Shown here: piece after piece, positions 2,690 through 22,016 of the stretch
Position numbering within the stretch: the stretch's first letter is position 1
Layout of the letters: each line of letters begins with the position of its first letter
From: a virus
Length of the DNA: 34,380 nucleotides
Direction: 5' to 3' (one strand)
IMG/VR virus record: IMGVR_UViG_3300044797_000051
Span: 1 to 34,380 of that record
Translations under genes and position numbers: made by a program
The notes under the pieces: generated by a model
Seen by the model: the letters and a program-made list of their open reading frames with translations, nothing else
Database searches by the model: none
What the model was told of the DNA's origin: nothing

Positions 2690-3956
2690 GCAGCAGCAGC
2701 CGATGACCAAGCAGCTCGCCCGCGAACAGCTCAACGGCTGGCGCGCAATGATGCAACTCCGGCCGGAAGATTCCGAAGCGATTCAGAATTGCGCGGCGTG
2801 TTTGTTTACACTCGGTGAGTCTGCCGAAGCGATGCAACTCTACGTCCGCGCCTACGAGATGAACCGCTCGTCTCCGGGCATCGCCATGAACTTCGCCATG
2901 ACCCTGAAAGACCTCGGACTGTACAGCGAATGTGCACACATGGTCGAACACGCCTACATGCTCGATCCAGATTATTTTTATCTGAAACTCGGCTGGGCGG
3001 AATCGCTTTTGCGAAACGGAAATTGGCGCGAGGCGTGGCCGCTCTATCAGGACTCCCGGCCAGCAACGAAACAGGCAGCGCGCAACATGCTGTCACTGCC
3101 CGATGAAATCATCGAGTGGCGCGGCGAGAAATTGACTGCGCCGGAAAATCAGTTGCTCGTAATCGGCGAAGGTGGGACCGGAGATCGCATCACGTACTCG
3201 CGCTGGTTGCCACTGCTCGACGCGCTCGGAATCGAGTGGACGTACTACCCGGATGCGCAGATTCCGATTCCCGGATTGCAAACGCTGTTCGAGCGCGTGC
3301 CGTGGCTCACGGGAAAAACCGCGAAGGTCGGCGACAAGTATTCGGCCTCGCATTGGACCACGGTGTTCTCTCTGCCTGCATGTCTCGATGCGACGCCAAC
3401 ACAAATTCCAAAATATCCAGACTGGTTTCGTCCTGATCCAGAAATCAAAAAGCGCTTTACGATTCAAAGGCCAGCGAACGACACGCGCCCGGTTTACGGA
3501 TTGATCTGGGGCGCAAACGAACTCTGGGAAGGAGGCATGAAATTTCGGTCGCTGCTCGAATCTCAGGCGATGCGTCTCGTGCTGACGACGACGGACAAGT
3601 GCCACTGGATAAACTGCTGGAACGGAGATCCGCATGGAACGAATGCGAAACTTGGCAACCCGGTTCTCAATCCAAAATTCGATGGTTGGGAAGAGACTGC
3701 GGCTCTGTTGGCGAATATGGACGGCATCGTCACAACAGATAACGGCGCTGGATGGCTTGCCCAAGCACTTGGGCTTCCCTGCTCAGTTCTACTCTCAGGA
3801 AATTCCGACTGGAAGTTTCTCCGAGGCAGTGAAAAATCTTATTGGTCCGATCGCGCTCGACTGTTCCGAAACGTCGGACAAGGCTTCGAGAACGCAGTGG
3901 ACAAGCTGATCATGGCGATCCGAAACGGTGAAGGAATTGGGCGACTCGTGCCCTGA
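2682..3956 (+). CDS. TPR protein with glycosyltransferase-9-like domain
   Basis: This 424-aa protein starts at ATG 2682, five bases after GAGGGG; the GTG at 2676 is too close to that site. Residues about 12-125 contain helical TPR-like repeats such as NCAACLFTLGESAEAMQLY and AMTLKDLGLYSECAHMVEHA. Residues about 155-400 resemble heptosyltransferase/GT9-like folds fused to TPRs in bacteria: LLVIGEGGTGDRITYSRWLP in the first Rossmann half, and GIVTTDNGAGWLAQALGLP around residue 350 in the second. Such enzymes add sugars to glycans or proteins. A phage copy could glycosylate a virion protein or change the host surface, which is inference. The stop codon lies inside a copy of the recurrent intergenic element. 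Confidence 0.6.
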   Translation: MPEQQQPMTKQLAREQLNGWRAMMQLRPEDSEAIQNCAACLFTLGESAEAMQLYVRAYEMNRSSPGIAMNFAMTLKDLGLYSECAHMVEHAYMLDPDYFYLKLGWAESLLRNGNWREAWPLYQDSRPATKQAARNMLSLPDEIIEWRGEKLTAPENQLLVIGEGGTGDRITYSRWLPLLDALGIEWTYYPDAQIPIPGLQTLFERVPWLTGKTAKVGDKYSASHWTTVFSLPACLDATPTQIPKYPDWFRPDPEIKKRFTIQRPANDTRPVYGLIWGANELWEGGMKFRSLLESQAMRLVLTTTDKCHWINCWNGDPHGTNAKLGNPVLNPKFDGWEETAALLANMDGIVTTDNGAGWLAQALGLPCSVLLSGNSDWKFLRGSEKSYWSDRARLFRNVGQGFENAVDKLIMAIRNGEGIGRLVP

Positions 3957-9213: not shown

Positions 9214-9236
9214 CGTGCCCTCTAAGCACAATATAG
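9214..9236 (+). repeat. recurrent intergenic element, copy 4 (divergent)
   Basis: CGTGCCCTCTAAGCAC followed by AATATAG, ending one base before ATG 9238. The GAAA core is changed to CTAA here. The portal gene has no other ribosome-binding sequence. Confidence 0.6.
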
Positions 9237-12531: not shown

Positions 12532-12555
12532 CGTGCCCCGAAACCAGATTAGTAG
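12532..12555 (+). repeat. recurrent intergenic element, copy 5
   Basis: CGTGCCCCGAAACCAGATT followed by AGTAG, nine bases after the scaffold stop. A separate ribosome site (CAGGAG near 12570) lies between it and ATG 12582. Confidence 0.8.
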
Positions 12556-12581: not shown

Positions 12582-13574
12582 ATGGCGTATCAGCCGGCCA
12601 GCGTTCTCACCTCAACTGCGGGACTCTCGCATCTTTCCTCGATCTACTATGATCGCGTGGGCGTCGAGAACCTGAAGGCGAATCTTCCCTTCGTCGCAAC
12701 CACATCGCGCCGAAAGCTGCCAGACCGAAATGGCCGCACCATCCAGCTCTATTCCTACGATCTGCTGGGCGTGGCCTCGACGCCGGGAACTGAAGGCACC
12801 GTTGGTACGGGCGAAAATCCCACGACCTCGATTCGCAATGTGACGGTGCAGCAGTATTTCAACTTCGCATCGTTCTCCGACATCCTCGTCGAAACCGCTA
12901 TCGACCCCATCGTCGAAAACACTGCCGCCGAAATGGGCTACCAGGCTGCATTGACCTCGAACTATCTGGCGCGCACCGAGTACGAAGCGGAAGCGCTGGC
13001 CGATGCCACGATTGTGACATCCTGCACAGACAACGAATTCTTTTCCGCATCGCTCGCTCGTCAGGGCGCGATGTCTCTGCGAAATGCCGATGTGCGGCCG
13101 CAATCAGATGGAATGTTCGTCGGCATCATCTCTCCGGCGCCGGCCTTCGATTTGTTGAACGACAACACAGCAGGCGGCGTGATCGACATTCTGAAGTATC
13201 ACCGGGAAGGCGCAGAAGAATTGATGCGCGGCGTGCAAGCCTACCGCATCATCGACGTGGCCGGAGTTCGGTTCATCGAAACCACGACTACCTCGACATT
13301 CTCCAGTTTCCCATCGGGCTCGAAAACTGGCTACGGAACCTACATCATCGGCCAGGATGCAGTGTTCTCGGTCAGTTTGGGCGCGACAGAAATTCCAGAA
13401 CAGCGCAATTTCCAGATCACCGTGCGGAATTGGGAACCGAGCGTGGCTGATCCGGCCCGCGTGGTCGGCGCATCGGCGGCGTACAATTTCAAGTACGCAG
13501 CGTTGCGCGTTCCGCAGAATCCTTCACTGCACCCGCGCTTCCGGCAGTTCAAAAACGAAGCGTCCATCGCCTAA
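12582..13574 (+). CDS. major capsid protein (N4 gp56-like family)
   Basis: 330 aa from ATG 12582 after CAGGAG. The frame is open upstream, but that part overlaps the scaffold gene. Features match the N4-gp56-type major capsid group: LPDRNGRTIQLYSYDLLG, then TEGTVGTGENPTTSIRNVTV, then QQYFNFASFSDILVETAIDP, and EMGYQAALTSNYLARTEYEA. These belong to an HK97-like fold and build the icosahedral shell. It follows the scaffold gene and begins MAYQPASVLTST, a start partly shared with the next gene. A strong ribosome site and a copy of the recurrent element precede it, fitting high expression. Confidence 0.85.
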   Translation: MAYQPASVLTSTAGLSHLSSIYYDRVGVENLKANLPFVATTSRRKLPDRNGRTIQLYSYDLLGVASTPGTEGTVGTGENPTTSIRNVTVQQYFNFASFSDILVETAIDPIVENTAAEMGYQAALTSNYLARTEYEAEALADATIVTSCTDNEFFSASLARQGAMSLRNADVRPQSDGMFVGIISPAPAFDLLNDNTAGGVIDILKYHREGAEELMRGVQAYRIIDVAGVRFIETTTTSTFSSFPSGSKTGYGTYIIGQDAVFSVSLGATEIPEQRNFQITVRNWEPSVADPARVVGASAAYNFKYAALRVPQNPSLHPRFRQFKNEASIA

Positions 13575-13583
13575 CGGGGGAGT

Positions 13584-14255
13584 ATGGCCTACTCCCCTGC
13601 TTCACTTCTCAATCCGACTTCGGACTTCGGCGGCACTCCCTCCATCGGCTCTCCCCTGCTCTACATCGTGCGCCACGGCCAAAACGATGACGATAAAAAC
13701 GGACGCATTCGCGGATTGAAAGATCAGCCACTCAACGCGCAGGGCGAAAAGCAAATCGAAGCCCTCCAAGAATTCTTCCGCGACAGACCCTTGCTGGCCG
13801 TCTACACCGATGACTTGAGCCGCACCAGGGCAACCGCAATGGCAATCGCTCAAGCTGCTAACTGCGGAGTCGATACCGATCTTGGATTGCGCTCATGGGA
13901 TCTCGGCAAATTGGAAGGCAAATCCATCGCCGCGCACAAAATCGAGATTCAGGACTTCAAGACCCACAAAGAGAAAGTTCCCACGGGCGGCGAGTCTTGG
14001 GGAGAATTCGAGCGCAGCGCCCATGCCACGCTCGATCGTTTGATGCAATGCGCGATGAGTTCGTCGGCGCCAATCGCGCTCGTCACTCACGGATCGTTCA
14101 TTCAGATATTTTTCGCCCGCTATGGCGACTTCGATCTGGGAATCCGCTATGACAGCAGCCCCTTGGAGCAGGCTGGCGTCGCCGCGCTTTATTTGACACG
14201 CGAAGGTATGCAATTGCGGACGCTACGAGGCGGAAAGGACGATCGTGACGAGTAA
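13584..14255 (+). CDS. histidine phosphatase (phosphoglycerate-mutase-like) with capsid-like N-terminus
   Basis: 223 aa from ATG 13584. It carries the full histidine-phosphatase signature: VRHGQ at 29-33 (phospho-accepting His31), LSRTRATA at 78-85, LGKLEGKS at 107-114 (probable acid Glu111), GGES at 135-138 and VTHGSF at 167-172 (His169). The family removes phosphate from sugars, nucleotides, lipids or proteins; the substrate is not visible here. Residues 1-12 (MAYSPASLLNPT) resemble the first residues of the capsid protein (MAYQPASVLTST). Residues 13-23 are a Gly/Ser linker. It is the first gene of an accessory cassette directly after the capsid gene. Confidence 0.85.
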   Translation: MAYSPASLLNPTSDFGGTPSIGSPLLYIVRHGQNDDDKNGRIRGLKDQPLNAQGEKQIEALQEFFRDRPLLAVYTDDLSRTRATAMAIAQAANCGVDTDLGLRSWDLGKLEGKSIAAHKIEIQDFKTHKEKVPTGGESWGEFERSAHATLDRLMQCAMSSSAPIALVTHGSFIQIFFARYGDFDLGIRYDSSPLEQAGVAALYLTREGMQLRTLRGGKDDRDE

Positions 14256-14919
14256 GTCGATCACAGGCGTCACACTGCCGGAGTTTGGCTCTACAGTGGC
14301 CCCCCAACCGCAAGGAATCGTGGTTGCCAGCGAGTACGGCTCAGTTCACACGAAAAACTGGGTTACTCCCAAGAAGAAGCCAGTCTTGCAGCGAGACAGG
14401 ACCGTAAAGGGAGCCTGCAAACTCCGGACTCCGCAAGGCACCCGGCGTTTCGACTCGACCGAAGAAATGCTGAAAGCGATGTGGCAGGACACGGACGCCC
14501 AGCTCGCACCCTACCGCTTCCCAGATCAGGAATCGTTCAAAAATGCCGCCAAGCAGACGGGTCATGGGCTCTGGTCGAACACGCTGGTCAAGCAAATCCT
14601 CAAAGCGGCGCCGCACCTGTTCTGTGAGGACTGTGTAGCGATTCCAGGATGCGCGGGATTTTACAAAATGGTGGACGGCGAAAAGAAGTTTACGAACGCA
14701 TCTTTCCGCCGCGGATTTGTGCCGGAATTCACGATCATCAAAACCGACGCCGCGGACCTCCCGGTAGAATTTACCTACGGCTGGCGCACAGTGCTCCTGC
14801 GTCTGGTAAAATCCCGTGATCTGACGATGAATCAGATCAACCGCATCTGGGGAGAAGTGAAATATGGAGACGAGCGCGCCAAGCATTATGCCGCGTATAC
14901 TCAAGAATTTCGCACGTGA
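14245..14919 (+). CDS. hypothetical protein of the accessory cassette
   Basis: 224 aa from GTG 14245 with AAGGA upstream, overlapping the phosphatase end. It is a soluble mixed-fold protein. The N-terminus is beta-like. A basic middle (KKKPVLQRDRTVKGACK) leads to a helical region with conserved-looking Trp and Phe. Cys residues occur near 130-137 (FCEDCVAIPGC), possibly a metal site. I recognise no family. It shares an operon with a phosphatase and a methyltransferase and may be part of the same modification pathway. It overlaps the next gene by 56 bases. Confidence 0.6.
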   Translation: MTSKSITGVTLPEFGSTVAPQPQGIVVASEYGSVHTKNWVTPKKKPVLQRDRTVKGACKLRTPQGTRRFDSTEEMLKAMWQDTDAQLAPYRFPDQESFKNAAKQTGHGLWSNTLVKQILKAAPHLFCEDCVAIPGCAGFYKMVDGEKKFTNASFRRGFVPEFTIIKTDAADLPVEFTYGWRTVLLRLVKSRDLTMNQINRIWGEVKYGDERAKHYAAYTQEFRT

Positions 14920-15478
14920 AGGCATCGCCTTTGGCAAGAGTCGCGCCGACTGTTCGCCCGAACAGATTGACGAACTTCTGAAAGTCTGCGAAGAAACCCG
15001 AAACGTTCCCGGCTGCATCATCGAAGTGGGTTCGTGGAAGTGTGGCACGACAATCTGCATGGCTGCGGACGAACCCACGCGGCAAATCTACGCCTTCGAT
15101 TTGTTTGGAGGATTGCCCTACGGAGAAGAGCAAACCGACTTCCGAAATTTCGGCGAGACGGACAAGGGAGAAATCTGGCGGGCAGTAGGAAACTTTCCGA
15201 ATATTTGTCTCGTTCCGGGGCGACACGAAGAAACTATTCCGATATTCGCCAGGCACAAAAAGCCGATCTCCATGCTCTTCATGGACTCGGACTTCTACTC
15301 GTCGCATGTCGTCGCCCTGGAGCACTTCTGGCCCCTGCTCTCGCTGGACGGAATCGCGCTGTTCCACGACTTCACCTTCGAGGGTGTGCAGCAGGCAATT
15401 AAGGAAGTGATTCCAAGGGAACAGTATGTGTGGCGGAAGATTGGGGACATGGGAGCCTTAAAGAAAATTGCGCGCTAG
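14864..15478 (+). CDS. TylF/MycF-type class I methyltransferase
   Basis: 204 aa from ATG 14864 (GGGGAG upstream; the ATG at 14888 lacks a site). The SAM-binding loop is CIIEVGSWKCGTT (51-63). Asp79 (YAFDLFGG) would hold the SAM ribose. MLFMDSDFYSSHVVALEHFW at 137-156 and FHDF at 167-170 match the metal-binding acidic residues of TylF-type sugar O-methyltransferases. By family it methylates a sugar hydroxyl. In a phage, a glycan on the virion or host surface is a plausible target, but this is inferred. Its 3' end overlaps the convergent gene on the other strand by 80 bases. Confidence 0.75.
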   Translation: METSAPSIMPRILKNFAREGIAFGKSRADCSPEQIDELLKVCEETRNVPGCIIEVGSWKCGTTICMAADEPTRQIYAFDLFGGLPYGEEQTDFRNFGETDKGEIWRAVGNFPNICLVPGRHEETIPIFARHKKPISMLFMDSDFYSSHVVALEHFWPLLSLDGIALFHDFTFEGVQQAIKEVIPREQYVWRKIGDMGALKKIAR

Positions 15479-16058
15479 GCCGCTTCCATGTGTGGATGTA
15501 ATCGTCCGTCAGCGGCGCGACGCCAATGGAATCGAAGAAGCGTTTCACCATCGCATGTTTTCCCTCATAGGGCTGCAAGCAGTCATCGACCGCGATCAGC
15601 GCATCCGACGCGAGCCACTTCCATGCGGAGCAAAGTTCTGCGGCGTGATGAAGCGAACTCAGGGCTTTGTTCAAGTTGTCGCCTGAGTAATCCATTGAGT
15701 CGAGATAAAGGAAGTCGATGGGCTGCCACATCTTTTTTACGCGTGCGAACCACTCGACCGAATCCCCGCAAATGATTTGAGTGCGCGCGCTCACTTTCGA
15801 TTTTGCGTGATTGCAATTTTCCGGGTTGATGTCGATCGAGATGCAGTAGCCTTCGGTTTTCTGTGCGACGTAATCCCAGACCAGAGTTGAGCAGCCATCG
15901 GCTTCGGGAGTTGGATTCGGGCGCATGCACCCGGTTTCGACGATGAAGATTGGCCGTTGCGCATCGAGCATTCCTTGCGCGATAGCCGAGAAGCGGGGCG
16001 CGCGGAACCCCACGGGATTTGAATCGAGGAAAGTCTTGAGGTCATCCATGCGGGGCAT
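15399..16058 (-). CDS. SAM-dependent methyltransferase-like protein, antisense in the late operon
   Basis: 219 aa from ATG 16058, or 216 from ATG 16049. It has a class I Rossmann pattern: IFIVETGC (37-44), ISIDINPENC with acidic Asp76, IICGDSVEW (96-103), IDFLYLDSMDYSG (114-126) and LIAVDDC (154-160). Compared with the neighbour at 14864 the layout is the same type, ending each half with acidic metal-like residues, but the two are not close copies. It is the only long minus-strand gene among the structural genes, facing the TylF gene tail to tail. It must have its own promoter. The substrate is unknown. Confidence 0.7.
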   Translation of the reverse strand: MPRMDDLKTFLDSNPVGFRAPRFSAIAQGMLDAQRPIFIVETGCMRPNPTPEADGCSTLVWDYVAQKTEGYCISIDINPENCNHAKSKVSARTQIICGDSVEWFARVKKMWQPIDFLYLDSMDYSGDNLNKALSSLHHAAELCSAWKWLASDALIAVDDCLQPYEGKHAMVKRFFDSIGVAPLTDDYIHTWKRPSAQFSLRLPCPQSSATHTVPLESLP

Positions 16059-16072
16059 TCTACCGCAAAACT

Positions 16073-16096
16073 CGTGCCCTGAAATCAGATTGTAGG
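16073..16096 (+). repeat. recurrent intergenic element, copy 6
   Basis: CGTGCCCTGAAATCAGATTG followed by TAGG. It lies between the divergent starts 16058 (-) and 16111 (+). ATAGGAG just after it is the ribosome site for 16111. Confidence 0.8.
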
Positions 16097-16110: not shown

Positions 16111-16563
16111 ATGGCGGTCAGCGGAACCCTTAACGTAAGTCAGCCTTCGAGCTGCGGCTGGTGGTCGGAATGCACTTTGACTGCGGCCTTCGCCGTCACC
16201 GGAACTTCGACGGCGACCATGACGATTTCCTATTCGAATGCGAGCGCGCGCGTGTTTCAGCCGTCGCTGCCCGTTGCCATGACCGTGCTGAATCCGTTCA
16301 CCGCAACTTCCGCCGCGCTGACGGCCTATGCCACCCTCCAGAACGGCACTAACAGCATTCCGCTCCAGCAATCGGGGGCCAGTGCCGGAATCGGCGTGGC
16401 GGCTGTGCTTCTGGCTACGACCGCGCAATCCACGGCAACCACGACTGGCCTGATTTCCTACACCGAAGCCGGATCGCTCACTGTGGTCTGCGTCAATGCG
16501 GGCGCGAGCGGAACTTTGACGGCTGGGACTCGGTTGCTGTTCATCCAGAACCAGGGGAACTAA
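16111..16563 (+). CDS. hypothetical beta-rich virion protein
   Basis: 150 aa from ATG 16111 with TAGGAG upstream. The composition is Thr/Ala/Ser-rich with alternating strands (GTSTATMTISYSNASARVFQ, then SLTVVCVNAGASGTLTAG). This is typical of small head-decoration or tail beta-sandwich proteins. Two cysteines near residues 15-21 flank Trp-Trp. No family is recognised. Together with 16565 it restarts the structural gene run after the accessory cassette. Confidence 0.6.
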   Translation: MAVSGTLNVSQPSSCGWWSECTLTAAFAVTGTSTATMTISYSNASARVFQPSLPVAMTVLNPFTATSAALTAYATLQNGTNSIPLQQSGASAGIGVAAVLLATTAQSTATTTGLISYTEAGSLTVVCVNAGASGTLTAGTRLLFIQNQGN

Positions 16564-17679: not shown

Positions 17680-18339
17680 ATGGGAGTGGTCACTGGCGTT
17701 TTCGAGCTTCCGAACGGTTCTCCCGTCGCGTCCGGACTCTATCAATGGAAGCTCTCCTCCGATGCGGTCGAGCTAGGCATTGGGTGTTTTGCGCCCATGC
17801 TGATTACCGGACTCCTGGATGTGAACGGCAACATGACGGCCACGTTCATATTCAACGACAAGCTGGTGACTGCCGCGGGGACCAACACAACTTACCAACT
17901 CACGATCAAGGATTTGGGCGGGCGGCAAGTCTGGAACGAGAATTATTTCCTGACTGGAACGGCGGCGAACCTCAACACCGTTCTGCCAGGCTCGGGGCCC
18001 CCGGGTGCGATTTACGTTCCAAGCGCCGTGATTCTGGGCGCGGATTCGGTGCAGTCGATTGCAGTCTCCGGAGGCGTAGGGTTTGCGAGCGCGCTCAACA
18101 GTTTAATAGAAATCACTTCCGGATCGGGAATCACGATGACGGCAGTGACGGCTGTGGGAGTTTCGGGCCAGACGCTTCGCTTCATCAAGGTAGACACGGC
18201 GACGGCGGCGGCTGTCTTGGTGGGAACGGCTGGGCAAACGTTCAGCGGAAACACGAGCCTCACTTTTACGAATCAGTGGCAAGCCTATCAAGTGGAGTCG
18301 GACAATGCGAATTGGATGGTTACTGCTGCTGCTGGCTAG
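17680..18339 (+). CDS. tail-fibre-like hypothetical protein
   Basis: 219 aa from ATG 17680 after AGTAGGAG. The N-terminal 100 residues form a beta domain (FELPNGSPVASGLYQWKLSS) like an N-terminal attachment module. A Gly/Pro hinge (LPGSGPPGAIYVPS) leads to a Thr/Ala/Val-rich C-terminal beta domain (AAVLVGTAGQTFSGNTSLTF, then NANWMVTAAAG). This two-domain layout with a hinge is typical of short fibre or appendage proteins. Receptor binding is possible but not shown. The end overlaps the next gene by 35 bases. Confidence 0.55.
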   Translation: MGVVTGVFELPNGSPVASGLYQWKLSSDAVELGIGCFAPMLITGLLDVNGNMTATFIFNDKLVTAAGTNTTYQLTIKDLGGRQVWNENYFLTGTAANLNTVLPGSGPPGAIYVPSAVILGADSVQSIAVSGGVGFASALNSLIEITSGSGITMTAVTAVGVSGQTLRFIKVDTATAAAVLVGTAGQTFSGNTSLTFTNQWQAYQVESDNANWMVTAAAG

Positions 18340-20569
18340 TGCGATGGCTTGGGCGCAACCCACGCCGATTCGCACCGTGACCAGTCTGCCCGCAACCTGC
18401 AAGGGCGGGACGGCCGGAATTTCTACTGATACCGTCGTGCTCGTCAGTGGAGGCGTCGGCCAGCAGTATACGTGCTCCGCGCCGAATACTTGGACCGCAA
18501 CCGGAACCAGTTTTCCGATCACCAGCCCTGAGACGATTTCAACGGGAGGCTCGATTTCACCGACAGGCATTGGGCAGGATGCGGCGAACCAAATGTGGCT
18601 TCCTGCGGGCCTCGGCTCAGGCGTAAGCAACGTAATCGGCTTGAGTGTAACGGTGAACCCGACGGGCGGATCGCTGACGAGCGCTCAAACTTATATCGTC
18701 GCATGGTTTAATTCAGCCGCGGGGAGCACCTATCCCAGTTATCAAGCGGCGCCCAGCATGTCTGCTTGCGGAGCGGCTGTTTGCAGCATCACGGTAAGCA
18801 TTCCTCAGCCAATACCCAACGGGATGACGACATGGACCGTCGGATCGAGCCCGAGTTCCGGTTCTGGCTATCTCGCAAATTCAGCATGCACCGCTCTCCC
18901 GGTCGCAACGACAACCTGCACAATTACCGCCTTGAGTTCTGGAGCCGCCGCACCAATATTAAACACGGCTTTTCTTCAGCCGCCAAACGTGCAGACGAAC
19001 GAGTGCCCCCTGGGAGTCATTCCGTCGATCTTCACGCAGGATATGTCGGGAAACTACCACACGGCGGGCGGCGTCGATCTCAACAGCAACAACGGAATCA
19101 CGTCGGGCTTCCTGATGTTTTGCCGCCACATGCGTTTTGACGACCAGCAACTCGAACCGCCCTACGGGAACAATGCCGCATGGATGTTCAACCACATGGC
19201 CGGAGTCGGCATCAGCACGGCTAATCAGGATCGCAACGTCTGGATGAACACACAAACTCCGACTGGCGACTCAGCTTCGCGGTACGGAGTCGAGAATCTT
19301 CAGGCCGAAACCGATTTCAATTGCAACGGTTGCGCGATCACCGGATCTCCCGATGGCGATGTCGAAGTCATCAGCGCCCAGCTTTCGGACAATATGCAGA
19401 CGAACCCTAACCCCGCTGGCGGGATTCAGGTTGCGCGGTTCAACTATGATCGCACTACCACGGCGACGGCCTATTTCAGCCCGTCCGTAACAGTCAATTC
19501 CACGTGGGGGCCCGGTTCGGCGACTGGTTTTTCTGGCGGCTCGCAAGGCATCGTTTACTTAGCGCAATGCTCCAACAGTTCCGGCAACATCCCGAACCTC
19601 GTCTGCTACGGCTACAATTTTTACGGGCCCGCGAATGCAGACCATTTCAATAACGGCACAATCGCCTTTGCATGGTCCAAGACGATTGGGTTTACTCCAA
19701 CTCTGGGATACGATTTTTTTATGCTGAATGAAATCATCGGGGCCGGATCGCAAATGAATGGTCCCGTGACTCTTTCCCAAGTGGTCAACAATTATTCGAA
19801 TACCACGTTGCCGATCACCGGGTCCACGGTTACGACCGCCTCGACCACGGTGACTCAAGGGACGATGCCTGCGCCCAGCAGTGTCACTTGTTCGGGCGGT
19901 GCAAGCACTTATGGCTATCAATTTGTCGGCGTGGACAACAATGGAGGCCAAGTCAGCAGCGTCGTCACAAACTCCGCATCGAGTTGCGCCAACCCTTTAA
20001 CCAGTGGAAACCCCGCAAGTATTTTTATTAATGCTACACCGGCTCAAATCGTCCAATTCGTGCGCATTGATGTATATCGAACCGCTGGGCCAATGGCAAC
20101 CGGAAAAGTCGGGAGCCTGACCTGCGGGGCGAGTGTGTACGGAGGAGCGACTTGCAATACGTTTTCCGATACTGGCCTCTCCGCATCCGGCACACTTCCA
20201 ACGATTAACACGACGGGAAGTTCTCAAGCCTACAAAGTTCAGACAACCACAAATTGCGCCGCGATTGGGAGTGCCGCGAGTCCTTCCCTAGTAGCGTGCG
20301 GATCGGCGTCGGCAGGATCGTTCTCATGTGCGACGAACGCTTCGACGGCAACCTGCGTAATCAGCACAACCGCAGTGACAGCCCTGAGCGAAATTATTGT
20401 TTCGCAGACTTCGGCGAAAGGAACGCAAATCGGAGTGACATGCAACACAACCGCAGACGTTCCGACTGGCCCGCGCGTGGCGTCGCAAAGTGCGGGAGTA
20501 AGTTTCACCATCAACCTTGGGACCGTGGCCGTAAATCCGACGTGCTACGATTACTTCATCGTGAACTGA
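18305..20569 (+). CDS. signal-peptide-bearing 754-aa protein, tail region
   Basis: Starts at ATG 18305 with GGAG eight bases upstream. The N-terminus MRIGWLLLLLASAMAWA is a clear Sec signal, with cleavage likely after residue 17 (AWA-Q). The mature part is Ser/Thr/Gly-rich and beta-like, with several cysteine pairs (VTCSGG, LTCGAS, ATCNTF). Near residue 600 a FN3-like segment reads QFVRIDVYRTAG. Secreted disulfide-type proteins of this style are common in Acidobacteriota. A large exported protein in the middle of tail genes is odd, since virions assemble in the cytoplasm. It may be an exported receptor-masking or polysaccharide-interacting factor, or a fibre carrying a pseudo-signal. I cannot decide. 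Confidence 0.6.
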   Translation: MRIGWLLLLLASAMAWAQPTPIRTVTSLPATCKGGTAGISTDTVVLVSGGVGQQYTCSAPNTWTATGTSFPITSPETISTGGSISPTGIGQDAANQMWLPAGLGSGVSNVIGLSVTVNPTGGSLTSAQTYIVAWFNSAAGSTYPSYQAAPSMSACGAAVCSITVSIPQPIPNGMTTWTVGSSPSSGSGYLANSACTALPVATTTCTITALSSGAAAPILNTAFLQPPNVQTNECPLGVIPSIFTQDMSGNYHTAGGVDLNSNNGITSGFLMFCRHMRFDDQQLEPPYGNNAAWMFNHMAGVGISTANQDRNVWMNTQTPTGDSASRYGVENLQAETDFNCNGCAITGSPDGDVEVISAQLSDNMQTNPNPAGGIQVARFNYDRTTTATAYFSPSVTVNSTWGPGSATGFSGGSQGIVYLAQCSNSSGNIPNLVCYGYNFYGPANADHFNNGTIAFAWSKTIGFTPTLGYDFFMLNEIIGAGSQMNGPVTLSQVVNNYSNTTLPITGSTVTTASTTVTQGTMPAPSSVTCSGGASTYGYQFVGVDNNGGQVSSVVTNSASSCANPLTSGNPASIFINATPAQIVQFVRIDVYRTAGPMATGKVGSLTCGASVYGGATCNTFSDTGLSASGTLPTINTTGSSQAYKVQTTTNCAAIGSAASPSLVACGSASAGSFSCATNASTATCVISTTAVTALSEIIVSQTSAKGTQIGVTCNTTADVPTGPRVASQSAGVSFTINLGTVAVNPTCYDYFIVN

Positions 20570-20570
20570 C

Positions 20571-21641
20571 ATGGGCTCGAATATCTCGTTGCAATCCGTG
20601 ATCGATTACGTCACCACAAGCGTGCGCGGCGTGAGCCTTGCCGACGTGCTCGGCGTGCAAAACGAGCCGGCACTTTCGATCTGCAACGATGTGTATCAGG
20701 AAACGTTACAGCGGCCTCTGACGTGGCGCTTCAACAAAGCGAACGCAGCCGGAACCGGACTGGGCATTCTCTATTTCACGACAGTCAACTATCAGCAAGA
20801 TTACCCCCTGACGAACGGCGTTTTGAGTGGAACGCTTTTTTCGGGCAACACAGTGAATCCGTATCCTGGAGGAAACGGGCAAGTCGTGCACATCGCCACG
20901 GTCGCAAACAATGGGCTGATCGTCGCAGGCGGAACGGGAACGATTATCGCGAACTGGCCGCACGGCTACGTCGCCGGGAAAACATTCTATCTGCTGAATA
21001 TCGGCCAGTGGGTGAACGGCGTTTTCGTCCCAGACACTTCGGGCAATGTCAACGGTGTTCCCTTCACGGTTCTGACCGTTCCCACTCCGACAAGCCTGAC
21101 ATTTGCGAGCGCGGCCGCGGTTGGAACTTACGGAGCGCCAGGCATCAACGATATTGGCTGGATTGAGCGCGCCGTGCTCGAAGATTATTTGTGCTCATCC
21201 AGCGTGAAGCCCCGCCACTCTATCGAGATGACGATGAACGTCGAACTGGAATCGATCATCCAGCCGCCGTTCAAGATCGCCTACCAGTACGCGAACACGG
21301 ATGCGACGCTGGCGAGCGGGCAACTGATTCCGAGCACGACAGCGGTGTTTCGCTTCTGGCCAATTCCATCATCGCAAATTTGGGGCTGTATGACGGATTA
21401 CCAGATGGCGCCGCAAACGTTCACCGATCTGGGAAATACTTGGGGCGTGTGGCCGGACCCGCTGATTTTCGTCATCCGTCAGGGCGTGAAAGCGATGGCG
21501 CTCGACTTCGTGGAAGATCCACGAGCGATCACCGAGTATCAGTTATTCCAGACGCGGCTCGATCAGGTGCGCGAAATTCGAGATCAAGAGCGACCGAGCC
21601 AGACCATGTTTCCGGATCGCCCGATTCTGTTCGGAGGTTGA
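20571..21641 (+). CDS. tail adaptor / tail tubular protein A-like
   Basis: 356 aa from ATG 20571. Head-to-tail adaptors of podoviruses (T7 gp11/P22 gp4 class) carry a helical N-terminus and a helical C-terminus around a beta insert. Here residues 1-55 are helical (ISLQSVIDYVTTSVRGVSLA). Residues 60-200 form the beta insert. After IGWIERAVLEDYLCSSSVKP the C-terminal part ends in FVIRQGVKAMALDFVEDPRA followed by EYQLFQTRLDQVREIRDQE, then PDRPILFGG, which is a typical ending for this family. It would join the portal to the nozzle encoded at 22317. The assignment rests on pattern plus gene order. Confidence 0.7.
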   Translation: MGSNISLQSVIDYVTTSVRGVSLADVLGVQNEPALSICNDVYQETLQRPLTWRFNKANAAGTGLGILYFTTVNYQQDYPLTNGVLSGTLFSGNTVNPYPGGNGQVVHIATVANNGLIVAGGTGTIIANWPHGYVAGKTFYLLNIGQWVNGVFVPDTSGNVNGVPFTVLTVPTPTSLTFASAAAVGTYGAPGINDIGWIERAVLEDYLCSSSVKPRHSIEMTMNVELESIIQPPFKIAYQYANTDATLASGQLIPSTTAVFRFWPIPSSQIWGCMTDYQMAPQTFTDLGNTWGVWPDPLIFVIRQGVKAMALDFVEDPRAITEYQLFQTRLDQVREIRDQERPSQTMFPDRPILFGG

Positions 21642-21644
21642 AGC

Positions 21645-22016
21645 ATGAAATATATTCTTGCACTTCTGTTGTTGTCGATCCCGGCATTCGCCGCGAGTCC
21701 ATGCGGATCGACTCCGACGCCGGGCGCGCCACACGTGTGCCTGACCTGGGTTGCGAGCACGACCACGACCGTGACTGGCTACAACGTTTATCGCGCGACC
21801 ACGGCGGGTGGCGAGAATTATTCGACGCCCTTGAATTTCGCGCCCGTGACGACACTGTTTTTTAATGACACTACGGACGCTGTCGGAACCACTTATTACT
21901 ATACCGTGATTGCAATCGGGACCGGAGGTTCCCTGAGCGCTCCTTCTTCGGAAGTCAGCGCTCAGATACCAGTGCCGCCGAGTGGACCAACCGCGCCCGC
22001 TGCCAGCATTGACTAA
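21645..22016 (+). CDS. secreted fibronectin type III domain protein
   Basis: 123 aa from ATG 21645 after GGAGG. Residues 1-16 (MKYILALLLLSIPAFA) are a Sec signal peptide. Residues about 28-110 form a single FN3 domain: CLTWVASTTTTVTGYNVYRA, then TPLNFAPVTTLFFNDTTDAV, then TYYYTVIAIGTGGSLSAPSS. A short Pro/Ala tail follows. FN3 domains bind carbohydrates or proteins. This sequence style is the one found in many secreted Acidobacteriota proteins, suggesting recruitment from the host. It stands between adaptor and nozzle genes and is probably exported, which is unusual for a phage structural cluster. Confidence 0.75.
   Translation: MKYILALLLLSIPAFAASPCGSTPTPGAPHVCLTWVASTTTTVTGYNVYRATTAGGENYSTPLNFAPVTTLFFNDTTDAVGTTYYYTVIAIGTGGSLSAPSSEVSAQIPVPPSGPTAPAASID

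Follow-up and report, generated by a model that had tools for sequence, protein, structure and literature searches.

Do the four genes behind the major capsid gene of this virus constitute one accessory system, or does their adjacency bring together genes with different histories? The window, meaning the whole stretch of DNA analyzed, is IMG/VR record IMGVR_UViG_3300044797_000051 (34,380 bases), and the stretch in question spans positions 13584–16058. A preliminary description had read the four genes as an accessory cassette that interrupts the structural gene order and whose enzymes could act on one phosphorylated or glycosylated substrate. We find that they are not one accessory system: the stretch comprises one normal head gene, one phosphatase that is a companion of the capsid, and two methyltransferases that arrived separately.

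The locus and its repeated element

The stretch lies in the head module, and the phage is of podovirus type, with an N4-gp56 capsid and an SU10-type portal; family searches identified the portal and a large terminase in the capsid module. Its features are as follows.

12532..12550, + strand: copy of the repeated element (CGTGCCCYGAAAYCAGATT) upstream of the capsid gene (pattern match)
12582..13574, + strand: major capsid protein, N4-gp56 family (TIGR04387, 69.9 bits against a cut-off of 60; phrog_1357)
13584..14255, + strand: HisP, 223 aa, histidine phosphatase branch 1 (PF00300, structure model, fold matches, alignment)
13584..13634, + strand: N-terminal arm of HisP (MAYSPASLLNPTSDFGG), predicted to be disordered (pLDDT, motif enrichment, purifying selection)
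14245..14919, + strand: Unk, 224 aa, conserved head-module protein (25 of 28 records; no family or solved-fold match)
14864..15478, + strand: TylF-like class I methyltransferase, 204 aa, recent insertion (PF05711; match to MycF/NovP)
15399..16058, - strand: Methyltransf_24-family methyltransferase, 219 aa, recent insertion, antisense to the operon (PF13578, phrog_24975)
16073..16091, + strand: another copy of the repeated element, in the gap that separates the - strand methyltransferase from the structural gene after it (exact pattern match)
16111..16563, + strand: g16.1, 150 aa, next gene of the module (gene mapping on relatives)

ORF calls and family searches bore out the preliminary description in its coordinates, strands, overlaps, facing fourth gene, and enzyme classes. 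Overlaps amount to 11 bp for HisP/Unk, 56 bp for Unk/TylF, and 80 bp for TylF and the - strand methyltransferase. When the window was compared with the closest related phage (L001), dN/dS was 0.13 for HisP, 0.12 for Unk, 0.20 for TylF, and 0.14 for the - strand methyltransferase. All four ORFs are therefore under purifying selection and are real coding sequences.

The capsid protein begins with MAYQPASVL in the window and with MAYSPASVL in L024. Capsid matches in L028 (8001–9575), L029, L030, L032, L014, L015, L025, L065, and L069 are split by inserts of roughly 0.2–0.6 kb, a pattern that introns, homing elements, or inserted domains would produce. An in-frame read-through fusion of capsid protein and HisP was considered and rejected, since the frame common to the two ORFs in L001 and the window is not kept in L002, and in other relatives up to about 3 kb separates them.

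A repeated element, TCGTGCCCTGAAAYCAGATTA, matches the window seven times with ≤3 mismatches (0.06 matches expected), always on the + strand (positions 3947, 5065, 6785, 12532, 16073, 22254, and 25401; looser matches at 9214 and 17650). Copies are nearly always intergenic and lie at unit borders at 12532, 16073, and five to six further places. Relatives carry their own phage-specific versions before the capsid gene and before the g16.1 homolog. The element is probably a lineage-specific promoter, and the copy at 12532 is the probable promoter of a unit comprising the capsid, HisP, Unk, and TylF genes. The - strand methyltransferase would lie outside this unit, and its strand carries no copy of the element. 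A search of 20 records for a T7-type RNA polymerase (PF00940) that might serve this element returned no match, and the control was likewise silent.

Distribution of the four genes in related phages

Window genes were mapped onto 37 loci with a capsid gene, taken from the viral collection, and onto further loci found via Unk, HisP, and the methyltransferases. For presence counts, the full records of 28 loci (27 contigs of viruses plus the cultivated Tunturiibacter phage Tunturi_3) were searched with the alignment of each gene. These records are fragments, so single absences are weak evidence; the overall pattern is consistent.

Unk was identified in 25 of the 28 related records, two weak cases being G024 and Tunturi_3 (E = 8.7e-6). 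It normally adjoins the capsid gene or HisP on the downstream side, 13 records with Unk have no HisP, and g16.1 is the gene immediately downstream of Unk in those close relatives that lack the methyltransferases. By this presence, Unk is a core gene of the head module. Searches of Pfam, PHROG, NCBIfam, and the PDB returned no match to Unk; its model is of medium quality (pLDDT 74.9), SH2 domains as its fold were dismissed as noise (top matches with E of about 0.5), and its one viral match (A0A6J5MC49) is uncharacterized. The case for a head role is therefore one of position and conservation: as the first of the layers described below, Unk would be made directly after the capsid protein and would most likely serve in head assembly or head completion. 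No virion proteome for this phage group came to light. A core head gene that spans a wide, largely uncultivated phage group and matches no family or fold merits a structure.

HisP was detected in 12 of the 28 records and is located between the capsid gene and Unk wherever the order is readable. A distant phage (L074) carries HisP elsewhere among its structural genes. The TylF gene, by comparison, lies behind Unk in just two phages, L001 and that of the window, and was found at another place in one other of the 28 records. A Methyltransf_24 gene was identified in two of them (L002 and L008), at other positions and on the + strand. One of these two finds is weak and partial, and the other (L008; record G003, 21204–21794) contains two in-frame TGA codons, which could reflect decay, sequencing error, or recoding. 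Most other relatives of the - strand methyltransferase stand alone, in phages unrelated to this one.

This distribution over 28 related records contradicts a single four-gene cassette. Co-occurrence in other genomes had been proposed as the check on the cassette: HisP and Unk do share a neighborhood in every readable capsid-linked case, and the methyltransferases, which occur separately, fail that test and with it goes the idea of one four-gene system with a shared substrate. That the HisP, TylF-like, and Methyltransf_24 enzymes form one cassette modifying one phosphorylated or glycosylated substrate (a capsid glycan, host sugar, or signal) is very improbable. The genes are adjacent and overlapping in two phages, both methyltransferases belong to the TylF/Methyltransf_24 group of O-methyltransferase-like enzymes, and HisP fold matches include relatives of sugar-phosphate phosphatases such as Rv2419c. 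However, ten related records have HisP and neither methyltransferase, the methyltransferases themselves are found away from HisP and from one another, and the fourth gene faces the operon with no promoter-like element of its own. None of the four proteins matched any PADLOC model, which argues against a link to defense, and our literature search found no phage set of a phosphatase and methyltransferases behind a capsid gene. Adjacency in a single phage was, in this case, no system.

Collectively, the distribution of genes across relatives suggests that the region consists of three layers that differ in age, a reading that we regard as highly likely on its own. Accordingly, the view that four genes interrupt the structural order has to be narrowed: Unk forms part of the order itself, as does HisP in this capsid lineage.

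Several relatives have ORFs inserted between the capsid gene and HisP, including an endonuclease VII in L045 and a TET-associated glycosyltransferase (TAGT, 1.6e-43) in L015 (3885–4799). This makes the stretch behind the capsid gene an insertion hotspot, a picture that the methyltransferases of the window fit; as the third layer, both would have been inserted into it later. The TAGT also hints at DNA base modification in the L015 phage. In L067 (4150–4539) and L068 (4413–4742), an ORF lying between capsid gene and HisP is related to the C-terminal portion of the protein encoded at 18305–20569 of the window.

The TylF gene matches PF05711 (4.8e-13; 49.4 bits against a cut-off of 23) and PF13578 (1.3e-8), and its product matches MycF and NovP in sequence. 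Alignment with MycF revealed that the MDxD motif is retained (MDSD; MDGD in MycF) and that the DDY of MycF is HDF. With this second acidic pair altered, the metal site of the TylF-like protein may differ from that of MycF. The - strand gene matches PF13578 (8.5e-7) and phrog_24975 (1.6e-25). We interpret the two as independent O-methyltransferase-like genes that were inserted later and have no functional tie to HisP.

The capsid-linked phosphatase

HisP matches PF00300 (His_Phos_1; E = 2.9e-33, 115.6 bits against a curated cut-off of 21.7), as do 14 of 14 relatives. Its AlphaFold model (pLDDT 87.7) has PDB fold matches to PhoE, CobC, and TIGAR, with Rv2419c also among them. The phosphate pocket (R30, H31, R80, and H169) is invariant in an alignment of 14 HisPs. 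At the position of the general acid, however, the glutamate is replaced by serine (Ser104, within LRSW) in all 14 aligned HisPs and in five further ones, that is, in 19 of 19 capsid-linked copies. Glutamate occupies this place in PhoE and Rv2419c, as it does in those cellular HisPs from three genomes that could be read here. HisP thus lacks the PhoE-type glutamate general acid, which is not a requirement of the superfamily. In addition, the Gly of the RHG motif is Val in L001 and Ala in several HisPs.

The replacement of the acid in every copy and the changes to the RHG glycine would be in keeping with a pseudoenzyme whose role is structural or in assembly and which binds a phosphorylated ligand or protein. 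We consider this improbable, given that Arg30, His31, Arg80, and His169 are all retained and that proton donors vary among families of the histidine phosphatase superfamily (PMC12051542), where Glu82 of the enzyme studied overlays the PhoE proton donor. Because donors vary in this way, absence of the glutamate is no proof of inactivity. Going by its residues, HisP may be active via another donor or may be inactive; with its pocket kept, it would most likely either rely on another acid or dephosphorylate a substrate whose leaving group departs easily.

The HisP and capsid trees have identical main clades, which shows that HisP was passed on together with the capsid. A pattern search of 84,980 cellular species genomes recovered only three distant HisP relatives. 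HisP, as the second layer, has accompanied this capsid lineage over the long term by vertical descent. When the window (13584–14255) is compared with L001 (5699–6370), the closest pair of phages, dS is 1.32 for HisP and 0.5–0.83 for its neighbors, which suggests that HisP was replaced by recombination. In L075 (5680–10656), a HisP domain with LRSWDLG resides within a 1,658-aa phage protein that also carries a HELFH metallopeptidase-like motif and might be a large injected protein.

The N-terminus of HisP bears an arm (residues 1 to about 20 predicted to be unstructured; pLDDT < 50 for residues 1–16). In 12 of 19 HisPs this arm has the form M-x-Y-[SY]-P, a match to how the major capsid protein begins; it is absent from the other seven although they too lie behind a capsid gene. 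The pattern M.Y.P[ASGT] had 39 matches when 5,726 candidate starts from 36 sequences were scanned, comprising 23 capsids, 12 HisPs, and 4 others. With a generous choice of starts, it was present in 3 of 116 other homologous gene instances versus 22 of 30 capsids and 10 of 13 HisPs. Constraint on the arm is similar to that on the enzyme core (pN/pS of 0.27 and 0.30, respectively). No copying of the capsid start into HisP was detected at the DNA level, with 11–18 of 27 bases identical. The likeness is short (nine residues), and the HisP tree is compatible with a single gain or loss of the arm. The evidence from the arm therefore counts as one or two evolutionary events rather than twelve, and all 12 HisPs with an arm may go back to these one or two.

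Could HisP instead be a cytoplasmic auxiliary metabolic phosphatase (acting on a phosphosugar, nucleotide, or cofactor phosphate) whose position next to the capsid gene serves nothing but strong late expression, its arm being incidental? We regard this as rather unlikely. Its fold is closest to the metabolic phosphatases PhoE, CobC, TIGAR, and Rv2419c, seven copies have no arm, and co-transcription with the capsid gene from the element at 12532 is likely. Against these points stand the strict linkage of HisP to capsid and Unk and its co-inheritance, the invariant loss of the usual acid, and the conservation of an arm that is unstructured.

The three-layer architecture together with a HisP linked to the head is, in our judgment, reasonably probable. 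Under this reading, the arm would most likely bring HisP to the assembling head, where the enzyme would act on a head protein or enter the new host with the DNA. That the arm docks HisP to the head is by itself a tentative proposal, and docking cannot be general since seven of 19 HisPs are without the arm. We would call it unlikely, if a little less so than a pseudoenzyme, that every element of a fuller version holds: a virion-packaged or head-docked phosphatase whose arm mimics the capsid start, a capsid N-terminus adopted as an addressing tag, and an active site that lacks the usual acid and is tuned to a phosphoprotein of head or host. If the arm does target HisP to heads, it would be a short natural tag by which enzymes could be placed in N4-gp56-type capsids, and HisP would be a case of a phage enzyme that copies the N-terminus of its capsid protein.

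Comparison with known systems

HisP shares the fold, RH motif, second Arg, second His, and PF00300 match of the branch-1 phosphatases PhoE, CobC, Rv2419c, and iPSP1. Unlike these, it has a serine at the acid position in all copies, a capsid-like arm, and a location in a head module. The TylF-like protein has the PF05711 match, MycF alignment, and MDxD motif in common with the O-methyltransferases TylF, MycF, and NovP but is about 70 residues shorter. The - strand methyltransferase is 35% identical over 86% of its length to a protein of Prochlorococcus phage P-TIM68 (phrog_24975). In contrast to that family, the window protein is single-domain, and its match covers the C-terminal part of the 509-position model.

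The nearest parallel to the arm, in principle, is provided by the internal proteins of phage T4, which carry a capsid targeting sequence (PMC3012670); common to both is the idea that a soluble protein could be brought into the head by a short, conserved peptide at its N-terminus. The arm of HisP, a putative targeting peptide, differs from the T4 targeting sequence in that it resembles the start of the phage's own capsid protein.
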